From an uncultured Methanomassiliicoccales archaeon (GTDB lineage: Archaea > Thermoplasmatota > Thermoplasmata > Methanomassiliicoccales > Methanomethylophilaceae), in NCBI GenBank assembly GCA_949292635.1, contig CASEZY010000009.1, positions 1-50,224 on the forward strand: DNA of 50,224 nt, written 5' to 3'. The notes under the pieces are model-generated. The model saw nothing but the letters and a program-made list of their open reading frames with translations, ran no database searches and was not told the origin of the DNA. This document shows, piece by piece, positions 20,330 through 49,840 of the stretch (the first letter of the stretch is position 1; every line of letters starts with the position of its first letter). The translations under genes and the position numbers were made by a program.

Positions 20330-20566
20330 TCACAGCCTCAGATCCCTGGGGCCCATCAGCTCCGGGAGTTCGGTCTCGAAGAGGGAGTCGAAGAATGCCG
20401 TGGCGAACAGCGGATAGTGTTCCAAGCCGCTGTCGTCGATGCCGACGTTCGAAGGTGCCAGACGTATGAATCTCTCGATCCCCTAGCCCTTGGTGCGGGG
20501 GTCGTTCATCAGTTTCGTCATGGACCTCGACCTGCGGGTGTTCCCCGATTTCACCTCTATCGCCGC
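20330..20566 (-). pseudogene. Relic C-terminus of a DUF4143-type AAA ATPase with an in-frame TAG
   Basis: Reading the minus strand gives 78 codons with one internal TAG. It starts AAIEVKSGNTRRSRSM, has a mid part RLAPSNVGIDDSGLEHYPLF and ends in LMGPRDLRL. The EVKSG-x-x-R-R-S-R-S motif is the catalytic segment of the C-terminal PD-(D/E)xK domain and matches EVKSGRSRRSRSL in the intact ATPase gene at 48287. About 380 N-terminal codons are gone, and a stop (TAG) also lies directly upstream at 20567-20569. Pyrrolysine decoding of the internal TAG is conceivable in this order but unlikely in a fragment. Promoter-like palindromes remain upstream at 20669-20762. Confidence 0.75.
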
Positions 20567-20642
20567 CTATCGATCATAACACTGGTAGGCATTTTCAGAC
20601 CGGGCAAAGGTCATCATTCATAACGCGTGTGCGGAGCCATAA

Positions 20643-20653
20643 AGTATTTAAAT
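20643..20653 (-). promoter_or_regulatory. Relic TATA box of the broken ATPase gene
   Basis: On the minus strand this reads GTATTTAAATA, the same core (gtatttaaat) as the promoter of the intact DUF4143 ATPase at 48.26 kb. It lies 24 bp from the first operator-like palindrome (20677). Confidence 0.45.
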
Positions 20654-20668
20654 ACAATTTCAAAAGCA

Positions 20669-20762
20669 GTGAAAAGTAGTGTAAAAACTACTTTTTACTG
20701 GTGAAAAGTAGTGTAAAAACTACTTTTTACTGGTGAAAAGTAGTGAATTTACTACATTTCAC
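20669..20762. repeat. Three palindromic units in tandem at a 32-bp period
   Basis: Two identical 32-bp units (20669-20700, 20701-20732) are followed by a diverged third (20733-20762). Each contains a TAGT-x6-ACTA palindrome: TAGTGTAAAAACTA at 20677 and 20709, and TAGTGAATTTACTA at 20741. The centres are exactly 32 bp apart, about three helical turns, and aligned with the relic ATPase promoter. The same palindrome type recurs upstream of the ATPase at 48287 with 33- and 32-bp spacing. The rest of 20567-20843 shows no gene. Confidence 0.9.
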
Positions 20763-28319: not shown

Positions 28320-30074
28320 TCAAAGCCTTCCGAAGCTGAACCTCACGGTGCTGGAGCGGGACATGGGTGAGGAGGGCAGACCGAAGAACCCGAAGGACAC
28401 CCCGACACGTCCGAAGGAGGACTGGGGTGTGTCCACGGGCATCTGAATGCCTTCATCCATGAGAGCATCGTCATCGACGGATGTCTGCATCTGGGTCTCT
28501 GCTTCGGGGACGTCCACGGCCACGGGAGCGGCGACGGACTCCTGGATCTCGGAGACGACCTCTGCCTCGACGGGAGCCTCTGCGACCTCGGGCATGGGGA
28601 TCGCTTCTACGGCCTCGGGGGCGGCGATGGCCTCTGCCTCGACGGGAGCCTCGATGGACTCGACGGTCTCGGGCGATGTCACCATCTGGATCTCTGCAGG
28701 AGCTTCAACGGCCTCGACGGTCTCGGGCAGGGGGATCGCTTCTACGGCCTCGGGGGCGGCGACCGCTCCGACCTCGACGGATGCTTCCAGGGCCTCGACG
28801 GTTTCGGGTGCGGTGATGGCCTCCGTCTCGACAGGCGCCTCGATGGCCTCGACCGCTACGGGTTCTGCGATGGCCTCGACCTCTGCCGGTGCCTCCACAG
28901 CTTCTACCGCCTCGGGCATGGCAATTACGTCCACAGCCTCGGGAGCGGTGATGGCCTCGACCTCTGCCGGTGCCTCCACCGCCTCGACGGTCTCGGGAGC
29001 GACGATCACGGGGATCTCGGCGGGGGCCTCCACGGCCTCGGACTCAGCGGGTGCCACGATGGCCTCGACAGCCTCAGAGGGGGGCTCTATGGCGGCTACG
29101 CTCTCCGGCGCACCCAGGGGGATGGCCTCGGCGGGGACTGCCAGGACCTCAAGGGTCTCCGGCGCGGCAACGGCCTTCGCGGCCTCCGGCATGGGGACGG
29201 CCGCCTGCTCCTCGGCGGGGGCGATCATGGGCGCCTCCTCAGCAGGAGCTACGTACTCCACGGCACCCGCATCGAGCACGGGGGTCTCCGCAGGAGCCTC
29301 CACCGCCTCGACGACGTCCGCGGGACCGATCTGCGCCACGGTCTCCGGCGCAACGATGAAAGTCATGTCTTCGGACACCGACGCTTCCGCATCGGCATCC
29401 ATGTGCACGGGCTCCTCGGCCACGACATCGGGGACCGCCTCGACGGAGGCCAGTTGCCTCTCCTCCGAGACCACGTCCTCCATCTCCAGGCTGTCCGCGC
29501 TCAGTTCGGGGGCGGCGATGATCATGGTGTCCGCCACCTCGTCGTCCAGGACGATGCAGGTGGTCTCCCTGACCTTGGGCGCCTCTTCCGCACCCTCGTC
29601 ATCCTCGAGCCCCAGACGGGAATGCTCCCCTCCGATGTTACTGACGACGGCTGCGCCTGAGGTGGACGTGGCGGCCACCTCGGCCCTCTCGATAACGGGG
29701 AAGGCGAAATCGTCTGTGAACGACCCTCCGCCGGGTCCGAGCACGTCGAGCTTCTCCTCCCGGACCTGCTCCTCGGGCCCCGCCGGGGATACGACCTCGA
29801 TCACGTTCTCTTCGACGCCCTCCGCACGTGCATCCTCGACGGCGGGCATCTCATCGGTATCGAGGACCTTTATGCCGGACTCCGTGCCGAGTATCCCCTT
29901 GGTCTCCCTCACAAGGTCGTCCACCGCGTCGTAATCCGGGTTGACGATCCTCGAAAGTGTCTCTCTGGCTCTCCTTCCTATGCCGAGCACCGAACCGAGT
30001 GCTGACCTCAAGCGAGACGCCAAGGTGCCCTCATCCCGTATGCCCGGAGTCGTGTCGTTAGACTCTGAGCTCAT
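28320..30074 (-). CDS. Large Ala/Glu/Val/Pro repeat protein of unknown function
   Basis: A 584-residue acidic protein. The N-terminal 50-70 residues (GTLASRLRSALGSVLGIGRR, ARETLSRIVNPDYD) can form basic helices. From about residue 210 to 530 it is a run of degenerate repeats of the type V-E-A-(V/I)-E-A-P-(A/V)-E-(V/A)-(E/x)-A-(I/V)-x-x-P-E, with more than twenty copies. The last 35 residues switch to a glycine/phenylalanine/serine-rich tail (FGRVGVSFGFFGLP then STVRFSFGRL). There is no signal peptide, membrane segment or catalytic motif. It may be an extended scaffold or surface-associated protein. I chose ATG 30074 (MSSESNDTT); ATG 30092 is upstream. I do not recognise a family. Confidence 0.75.
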   Translation of the reverse strand: MSSESNDTTPGIRDEGTLASRLRSALGSVLGIGRRARETLSRIVNPDYDAVDDLVRETKGILGTESGIKVLDTDEMPAVEDARAEGVEENVIEVVSPAGPEEQVREEKLDVLGPGGGSFTDDFAFPVIERAEVAATSTSGAAVVSNIGGEHSRLGLEDDEGAEEAPKVRETTCIVLDDEVADTMIIAAPELSADSLEMEDVVSEERQLASVEAVPDVVAEEPVHMDADAEASVSEDMTFIVAPETVAQIGPADVVEAVEAPAETPVLDAGAVEYVAPAEEAPMIAPAEEQAAVPMPEAAKAVAAPETLEVLAVPAEAIPLGAPESVAAIEPPSEAVEAIVAPAESEAVEAPAEIPVIVAPETVEAVEAPAEVEAITAPEAVDVIAMPEAVEAVEAPAEVEAIAEPVAVEAIEAPVETEAITAPETVEALEASVEVGAVAAPEAVEAIPLPETVEAVEAPAEIQMVTSPETVESIEAPVEAEAIAAPEAVEAIPMPEVAEAPVEAEVVSEIQESVAAPVAVDVPEAETQMQTSVDDDALMDEGIQMPVDTPQSSFGRVGVSFGFFGLPSSPMSRSSTVRFSFGRL

Positions 30075-30201
30075 GCAATCCCATCCTACCACGCATAAGT
30101 TTCATCGGGATAAATAACTGACGCACGCGCGAAAGGACGTGAAATCGCCCCGTTCATCAAGAAATGCTAGTCTGGCTCATGAGGACGATGGTGCATAAGG
30201 G

Positions 30202-48184: not shown

Positions 48185-48263
48185 TAGTAAATTTACTAGA
48201 AAAATACCCCATTTTTGTAGTAAGTTTACTAGAATAAAGTCGGTTTTTGTAGTAAGTATTTAA
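48185..48263 (+). promoter_or_regulatory. Palindromic operator array and TATA box of the DUF4143 ATPase gene
   Basis: TAGTAAATTTACTA (48185-48198, perfect palindrome) and TAGTAAGTTTACTA (48218-48231) are followed by a half-site TAGTAAGTATTTA (48250-48262) that runs into the TATA element gtatttaaa. The spacings are 33 and 32 bp. The TATA centre at about 48260 is 26-27 bases before GTG 48287. The array resembles the three palindromes at 20677-20754, which lie before the broken paralogue. Confidence 0.8.
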
Positions 48264-48286
48264 ATGGAACAAACCATTCACAATCC

Positions 48287-49678
48287 GTGAAGCGCAAGAT
48301 GATGCAGGCGCTCCTCGAATGGAAGGAGCGGAGGAACGGACGGGCTATACTGATCAGGGGTGCCAGGCAGGTCGGCAAGACGTACCTGCTCAAACGTTTC
48401 GGCGAAGAGCATTATTCCAACACGATCTACATCAACTTCGAAGACACGCCCGAACTCAGAATCATATTCGACGAGGACAGATCCGCCGATGTACTCTACA
48501 ATCGCATCTCTTACCGTTTTCCCGAGACCGATCTGCATGACTGCCTGATCATAATCGATGAAATCCAATCCTGTCCCGCAGCATTCTCCGCCTTGAAACC
48601 ACTGGCAGCAGACGGCCGCTGCGATATCGCAGCATCAGGATCCCTCCTTGGCAACGTCATCGAGGACGGTTTCCTGTCCCCCATGGGCTATATCGACACT
48701 GTAACGATGGAGCCAATGGATTTCGAGGAGTTCCTTTGGGCATCCGGACTGACCGAAAGCCAGACCCATGCGGTACAGACGAGCATCAGGGGTCTGAGTG
48801 CAATGGACGGGTTCGTTCGTAACCGCATCACAGATCTGTTCAAGAGATACATCACCGTCGGCGGCATGCCTGCTGCGGTCAAGGCGTACACGGAGACCGG
48901 GCTGTATTCGGAAGCTGTAAAGGTCCACAAAGGGATCTATGACATAATCTGCCGCGATGCCAAGAAATACGCCATTCGGCCTGGGGACAAACTGAGGATA
49001 CAGGAGTGTCTTGACTCCATACCGAGACAGTTGGCCAGAGAGAGCAAGATATTCAATTACACCGACATCGCCATGAAAAAAGGCTATGGCAGAAGAGAAT
49101 ACGGCAGTGCACTTCTGTGGCTGGAGAACGCCGGCATCATAGACATCTGTCGCAACCTAGAGGAACCCGCCGAGCCACTGGGTCAGAAGGCGAGACGCGA
49201 TTCGTTCAAGGTCTACATGAAGGATACGGGACTGCTGACATGCATGCTCGGATCGGACATCGCATCCGGTATCGTGAACGGCGATTTCTATGTGAACAAT
49301 GGGGCCGTCATGGAGAATGCAGTCCTGGAGGCACTGGTGAAGAAGGGATATGATGTCTACTTCTACCATCCCATGGGAAGATCCATTGAGATAGATTTCG
49401 TGCTCAATCTCAATGGCAAGATAGCCGCCTTCGAAGTCAAATCCGGAAGATCGAGGAGATCCAGATCACTGAGCATGCTGATACAGTCATCTGATACTGT
49501 GAACGTGGGAATCAAAGTATCCAATACCGATGTGTCCGTTGATGAGAACGGAGTGATACACATACCACTTTTCGGCCCATGTTTCCTTGAGGACCGCCGC
49601 GAACCGGACATCGGTGCGTTCGAAGGGATCGATGAACTGAAGAAAGCGCTGGATACGATGGACCGTTCAGACAACTGA
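48287..49678 (+). CDS. AAA+ ATPase with DUF4143 nuclease-like domain
   Basis: A 463-residue protein. Walker A GARQVGKT is at residues 25-32, Walker B LIIIDEIQ at 87-94, the sensor region is DIAASGSLLG, and a long helical/winged middle region includes VGGMPAAVKAY. The C-terminal DUF4143 fold carries EIDFVLN...AAFEVKSGRSRRSRS, the D-x(n)-E-x-K pattern of PD-(D/E)xK nucleases. Members are multicopy in many archaea and gut anaerobes; function is unproven, with mobile or defence roles proposed. The leaderless GTG start 48287 fits the promoter; ATG 48299 is an alternative. Base composition is more AT-rich than the flanking operons, as expected for transferred DNA. Confidence 0.88.
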   Translation: MKRKMMQALLEWKERRNGRAILIRGARQVGKTYLLKRFGEEHYSNTIYINFEDTPELRIIFDEDRSADVLYNRISYRFPETDLHDCLIIIDEIQSCPAAFSALKPLAADGRCDIAASGSLLGNVIEDGFLSPMGYIDTVTMEPMDFEEFLWASGLTESQTHAVQTSIRGLSAMDGFVRNRITDLFKRYITVGGMPAAVKAYTETGLYSEAVKVHKGIYDIICRDAKKYAIRPGDKLRIQECLDSIPRQLARESKIFNYTDIAMKKGYGRREYGSALLWLENAGIIDICRNLEEPAEPLGQKARRDSFKVYMKDTGLLTCMLGSDIASGIVNGDFYVNNGAVMENAVLEALVKKGYDVYFYHPMGRSIEIDFVLNLNGKIAAFEVKSGRSRRSRSLSMLIQSSDTVNVGIKVSNTDVSVDENGVIHIPLFGPCFLEDRREPDIGAFEGIDELKKALDTMDRSDN

Positions 49679-49798
49679 TATGAGGAGTATACACTTACGA
49701 ATAATCCGCCTACCCAATCATCTACCTTCGAGTATGTGTCCGCAACACCAAAGATCTGGTCTGGACAGGAGTTGTGCTTTATAAACAGACTTTGAAAA

Positions 49799-49840
49799 TC
49801 TATCAGTCATTGATAGAAAAATCTATCAGTCATTGATAGA
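49799..49840. repeat. Two identical 19-bp palindromic repeats next to a TATA box
   Basis: TCTATCA-gtcat-TGATAGA occurs at 49799-49817 and 49822-49840 (period 23 bp). Each has perfect 7-bp arms. A TATA-like ctttataaac lies just upstream (49777-49786), so the pair would cover a transcription start at about 49807. No credible gene follows on either strand. The surrounding 49679-50091 (413 bp) contains nothing else I can support beyond weak, short frames. Confidence 0.75.

Follow-up and report, generated by a model that had tools for sequence, protein, structure and literature searches.

Genes for DUF4143 ATPases in an uncultured Methanomassiliicoccales archaeon and its relatives carry tandem repeat arrays at their own promoters. 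The array sequences are largely private to each gene and are inherited with it, and the spacing of the repeats is set by the clade of the ATPase. We consider it likely, with a probability of roughly 0.7, that the arrays are private promoter-abutting operators, each ATPase binding its own array and repressing its own promoter.

A live and a decayed ATPase locus

The window analysed here is a contig stretch of 50,224 nucleotides that holds two such loci. At 48 kb, an intact class B ATPase gene (48287–49678, plus strand) is preceded by an array on the same strand (48185–48256) composed of TAGTAAATTTACTA (48185–48198), TAGTAAGTTTACTA (48218–48231) and a half-site, TAGTAAG, at 48250. As the original prediction had described, and as can be read directly in the sequence, the palindromes are spaced 33 and 32 bp apart and the last half-site runs into gtatttaaat, a TATA-like core (48256–48265) about 26 bp ahead of the start codon, the position at which such boxes occur across the family.

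At 20 kb, the minus strand carries what is left of a second class B gene (20331–20576), for which the same prediction had proposed a broken DUF4143 frame. Only the C-terminal ~75 residues persist, with in-frame stops: residues 378–450 of the 48-kb ATPase align at 20342–20572 across two TAG stops (tblastn). The dead promoter, also on the minus strand, retains gtatttaaat at 20644–20653 (the element itself was correctly predicted, its start one position too early at 20643) and an operator array of three ~32-bp units, GTGAAAAGTAGT-N5/6-ACTACTTTTTACTG, at 20668–20760. Its three TAGT-N6-ACTA cores (20677–20690, 20709–20722 and 20741–20754), which had been predicted as palindromes 32 bp apart, are plain in the sequence, their centres being exactly 32 bp apart, and the array has a self-repeat score of 45 at period 32.

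The dead array had been said to match the live one. The two have TAGT..ACTA in common, and their likeness (score 13.5) lies solely there; the arrays of L201 (22.5), L087 (21), L020 (17.5) and L226 (16) match the dead array better. L226 and L087 are also the best protein matches of the remnant (blastx), an overlap expected by chance with a probability of about 0.002 (two draws, both falling among 4 of 77). The dead locus thus serves as an independent check, and the agreement between remnant and array fits a gene and an array that belong together.

The palindrome proved to be rare: the pattern TAGTRNNNNYACTA would be expected 0.01 times in the window but matches three times there, and nowhere in the 1.48-Mb genome does it occur outside the 20-kb and 48-kb arrays. 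The live class B ATPase is followed closely by an orphan array of the class A pitch, CTATCAGTCATTGATAG in two copies on the minus strand (49800–49839), which has a repeat score of 25 at period 23; a TATA-like sequence occupies 49778–49787 on that strand, and blastx found no ATPase remnant beside the array. When all 455 tiles of the window were scored for self-repeats, high values outside the two ATPase arrays were confined to this 49.8-kb array and a coding repeat at 28.5–28.9 kb. The latter (28491–28931) has internal repeats with periods of 54, 72 and 81, overlaps a long minus-strand open reading frame (28320–30092) and is unrelated to the arrays.

Array pitch follows ATPase clade

The genome (1.48 Mb, 99.9% complete) contains about 32 DUF4143 ATPase genes (32 matches), and a relative contains up to 40. 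Most of these promoters in the genome carry different tandem arrays, for example GATTACACAACGAAAACACCCTCA in four copies (L007), CAGCCATCTTGCGGAATTTAGTAC in three (L008) and a 33-bp unit in six (L015), so the TAGT array appears to be one of many private operators.

In a tree of 178 ATPases, drawn from this genome and from its genus and family, clades A, C and D were fully supported and clade B had a support of 0.54 under midpoint rooting. The self-repeat score was calibrated on shuffles, with a threshold of 14 that was reached by none of 178 shuffled promoters and none of 178 coding stretches. Scores above this threshold were found in front of 45 of the 49 class A genes and 57 of the 77 class B genes, the other 20 class B genes giving no periodic array at that level; in class C, 10 of 41 genes passed and 31 did not, and in class D 1 of 11 passed. 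Periods were 22–24 or 46 bp in 44/45 class A arrays, 32–34 or 64–66 bp in all 57 class B arrays and 40–41 bp in all 10 class C arrays, so that the period expected for the clade was found in 111 of 112 detectable arrays of classes A, B and C. The predicted binding of protein every three turns on one face of the helix agrees no more than loosely with class B (32–33 bp) and not with class A (23 bp) or class C (40–41 bp). Classes C and D, with their weaker tandem periodicity, are enriched in inverted repeats near the start, often nested (p = 3.6e-6 and 5e-4, respectively).

Outside the family, most loci of deeply related Thermoplasmatota showed no clear periodic array; two of them, L244 and L253, were weakly positive at 32–33 bp. 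A related-locus search of genome contigs returned a single relative, from Bifidobacterium. In Bifidobacterium oedipodis, a class A gene has period 23 and seven class B arrays have periods of 32–34 or 66 bp. Loci on IMG/VR viral contigs have periods of 32–33 bp, and plasmid loci have 32–33 or 64–66 bp in 8/9 scoring arrays (Segatella, Collinsella, Parabacteroides, Fusobacterium, Glaesserella, Prevotella, Criblamydia and Vibrio), the exception, L298, being weak, distant and of period 42. The bacterial class B loci suggest a narrower diversity of specificity than that of the archaeal family. By eye, many arrays among bacterial class B loci L283–L307 have a loose common GAAAAAnTGT-like core.

A different gene family of the same genomes, PF01637 (ATPase_2; L308–L318 and L333–L359), also has promoter-proximal palindromic repeats, with a distinct period of 27–30 bp, in 11/28 promoters compared with 1/28 shuffled ones.

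Promoter position and the ATPase protein

In classes A and B a TATA-like box lies at −28/−26 from the start codon and the array ends at about −30, which places the array upstream of, or overlapping, the TATA/BRE. The position of the box is consistent with leaderless mRNAs; the arrays probably lie outside the transcript, where they would be well placed for occlusion. Sites that overlap or abut the core promoter are what an autoregulatory operator system has. No non-ATPase neighbour gene recurred in more than two of 31 loci, and neither a linked regulator nor the linked antitoxin gene of a toxin–antitoxin system was found at them.

Compared with close relatives, the loci are insertions: the genes that flank the 20-kb locus lie next to each other, with no ATPase between them, in G005 (where the GTPase is 97% identical), G001, G002 and G004, and behind the DUF711 gene the ATPase is missing in G005, G001 and G003. 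A serine-recombinase-like fragment (ALYARVSTDEQAEEGYSLGAQ) lies near ATPase genes L006 and L035 (contig C11), whose surroundings are possibly a mobile region.

The 48-kb ATPase matches the Pfam families AAA_14 (PF13173; 91.4 bits against a cut-off of 27) and DUF4143 (PF13635; 102 against 28.1), and over residues 1–434 the PADLOC profile PDLC04786 of PDC-S01 (E = 9.7e-121). PDC-S01 profiles match all clades A–D (PDLC04787 for class C, PDLC04790 for class D). The Walker A, DEIQ and E-x-D-F ... E-V-K motifs are invariant or nearly so, and an AlphaFold model (pLDDT 83.7, pTM 0.84, 10 sequences) predicts an AAA+ domain, a helical part and a PD-(D/E)XK domain; motifs and predicted topology together give the fusion of ATPase and PD-(D/E)XK domain that defines PDC-S01. 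A winged helix is probable at about residues 232–291 of the model.

In class A, similarity between arrays was best predicted by the winged-helix region (partial Mantel scan; max-corrected p = 0.017). The class B peak (p = 0.017) fell on a low-confidence AAA+ loop after sensor 1 (residues 121–145) and not on the winged helix. These scans give only hints of where the recognition residues lie, and the hints differ between the two classes.

Foldseek matched the model to Pyrococcus PABY2304, VC1899, Cdn1, Orc/Cdc6 bound to origin DNA (2qby and ORC entries) and RuvB, a likeness at the level of domains since full-length TM-scores were low. Orc1/Cdc6 and DnaA-type initiators bind repeated boxes and, in the Foldseek comparison, have the same AAA+ plus winged helix fold; unlike them, the ATPases here have no origin linkage, carry a C-terminal PD-(D/E)XK domain and occur as dozens of paralogues with private sites. 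The likeness to Orc/Cdc6 and RuvB raises the alternative that the ATPase binds its array as an activator or as an assembly or sensing platform, in the way of Orc1/Cdc6- or DnaA-like loading, with control of the promoter secondary. Head-to-tail arrays of up to ~8 copies, which exceed the needs of simple repression, would suit such a role. Yet an array that ends at −30 beside a TATA box at −26/−28 is positioned as expected for occlusion, and every detected array sits at the promoter of its own gene; we regard this alternative as unlikely.

Arrays are private and travel with the gene

Shuffles scored at most 11, and within the genome only 3 of 231 array pairs (scores 16, 13 and 12.5) were more than 0.5 above that value. 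At 25–40% protein identity about 1% of pairs share arrays, compared with 7/12 (class A) and 4/7 (class B) of the pairs at 60% identity or more. Of the 18 pairs of related ATPases tested, most of them drawn from different genomes, 17 had matching arrays (10–33) alongside flanks that were mostly at noise level (6–8.5 for 118 bp upstream, 6–11 for the 3' flank), and hence the array moves together with the gene rather than staying with the locus. The exception, L089/L090, is near-identical throughout. These two class B ATPases, from two congeneric species, are 98% identical including their flanks, for which recent transfer, close strains or contamination are alternative explanations.

Co-inheritance is accompanied by change. 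The arrays of L173/L176 and of L211/L216 are unrelated despite 63–73% protein identity, so that specificity can change without large divergence, and the global Mantel correlation between protein and array is weak (class A 0.061, p = 0.11; class B 0.091, p = 0.036). L100 and L130 (G005, contig C2), divergent class B ATPases with 26% identity, have one intergenic array in common, and one of the two may do without a private array. For pairs of at least 50% identity, we found no evidence of within-genome insulation, that is, of paralogues avoiding the same specificity (3/19 pairs sharing arrays within genomes, 15/143 between; Fisher p = 0.45). A single core motif for the whole family was rejected; what the arrays share is a weak A-rich theme, barely above shuffles.

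The original prediction had offered two readings, of which the first was that one shared regulator silences all copies. The class-wide pitch and the A-rich theme could mean one regulator per class, and a host regulator, or a few, would then bind all the arrays and silence the ATPases as a group. The TAGT palindrome is, however, absent from the other ATPase promoters, which carry arrays of their own, and its core occurs nowhere else in the genome; an equal pitch is found in other phyla, where the host regulator would differ. Since dozens of private sequences are beyond what a single regulator can account for, we rejected this reading on array privacy and consider it very improbable. Least probable of all is that slippage produced the repeats, as VNTR or phase-variation devices to which no protein binds: in several arrays (those of L015, L173 and L001) the copies stand head to tail and are almost perfect, but slippage alone predicts neither that imperfect, diverged arrays keep their clade-specific pitch nor that cores are kept between relatives whose flanks differ, and it cannot explain a clade-fixed pitch.

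A model for the arrays

The second reading, in which every ATPase is the binder of the array at its own gene, has strong though indirect support, because pitch follows clade, the array travels with the gene, remnant and array agree at the dead locus and no linked regulator was found. The ATPase is the probable binder because it is the only protein that co-varies with the array beside it, and negative autoregulation is the simplest role for binding given the position at the promoter. In our model, each ATPase would recognise the repeat unit of its own gene by the unit's core, and copies of the protein would assemble next to one another along the array. Packing of the protein would set the pitch, at 23 bp in class A, 32–33 bp in class B and 40–41 bp or nested inverted repeats in class C, and the bound protein, lying over DNA that overlaps the TATA box or adjoins it upstream, would repress its own gene. 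Fast-diverging recognition together with fixed packing on DNA would explain both the private sequences and the clade-fixed pitch. Gene and array would together make up a solo cassette able to enter intergenic sites, quick to change its DNA specificity and subject to decay; such a cassette would be decayed at 20 kb and live at 48 kb. Release from the array might then free the nuclease-like domain for antiviral defence, a candidate function taken solely from the PDC-S01 candidacy.

A broader proposal, which we regard as tentative, sees each PDC-S01 ATPase as a selfish or defence element made of a single gene, and the elements as forming immunity-like specificity groups. Self-binding would silence each element, new specificities would allow many copies to coexist in one genome, infection or lost self-binding would free an ATP-driven nuclease, and the pitch would be that of a filament which the ATPase forms on the array private to it. 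Temperate-phage repressor immunity groups and autoregulated toxin–antitoxin operons likewise have a self-binding repressor, a private operator and specificities diversified to avoid cross-talk; unlike in these, the putative effector here is also the putative repressor, in a single gene, and the pitch is fixed by clade.

PDC-S01 itself is a PADLOC phage defence candidate in which an ATPase is fused to PD-(D/E)XK; according to excerpts of its description, among the defence systems and candidates of prokaryotes it ranks fourth in frequency, and its antiviral activity, as for most PDCs, awaits validation (PMC12988326). The genes studied here resemble it in profile matches, solo-gene layout and cross-domain distribution, and differ in their promoter arrays, of which those excerpts make no mention (PMC12988326). 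The nearest described case is RptR, a 9-kDa repressor of a defence island that binds three direct repeats of 9 bp with a conserved TAGCTA site (PMC12255303). Both have multiple short repeats that overlap a defence-gene promoter, and RptR represses itself, as is proposed for the ATPases; RptR, however, is a separate repressor with a conserved site, whereas here no such repressor was found and the units are of 23, 33 or 41 bp with gene-private sequence. Searches of the open-access literature brought up no account of such arrays. Of the proposed undescribed defence-like system, then, the gene family was already listed, as candidate PDC-S01, and it is the private arrays that appear to be undescribed.

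Private arrays with a clade-fixed pitch offer a first concrete biochemical handle on PDC-S01: the sequence alone yields predictions of the ligand of every paralogue, of the stoichiometry and of the regulatory logic. With dozens of naturally varied protein–site pairs in one genome, they may also reveal how an AAA+/winged-helix protein changes its DNA specificity.
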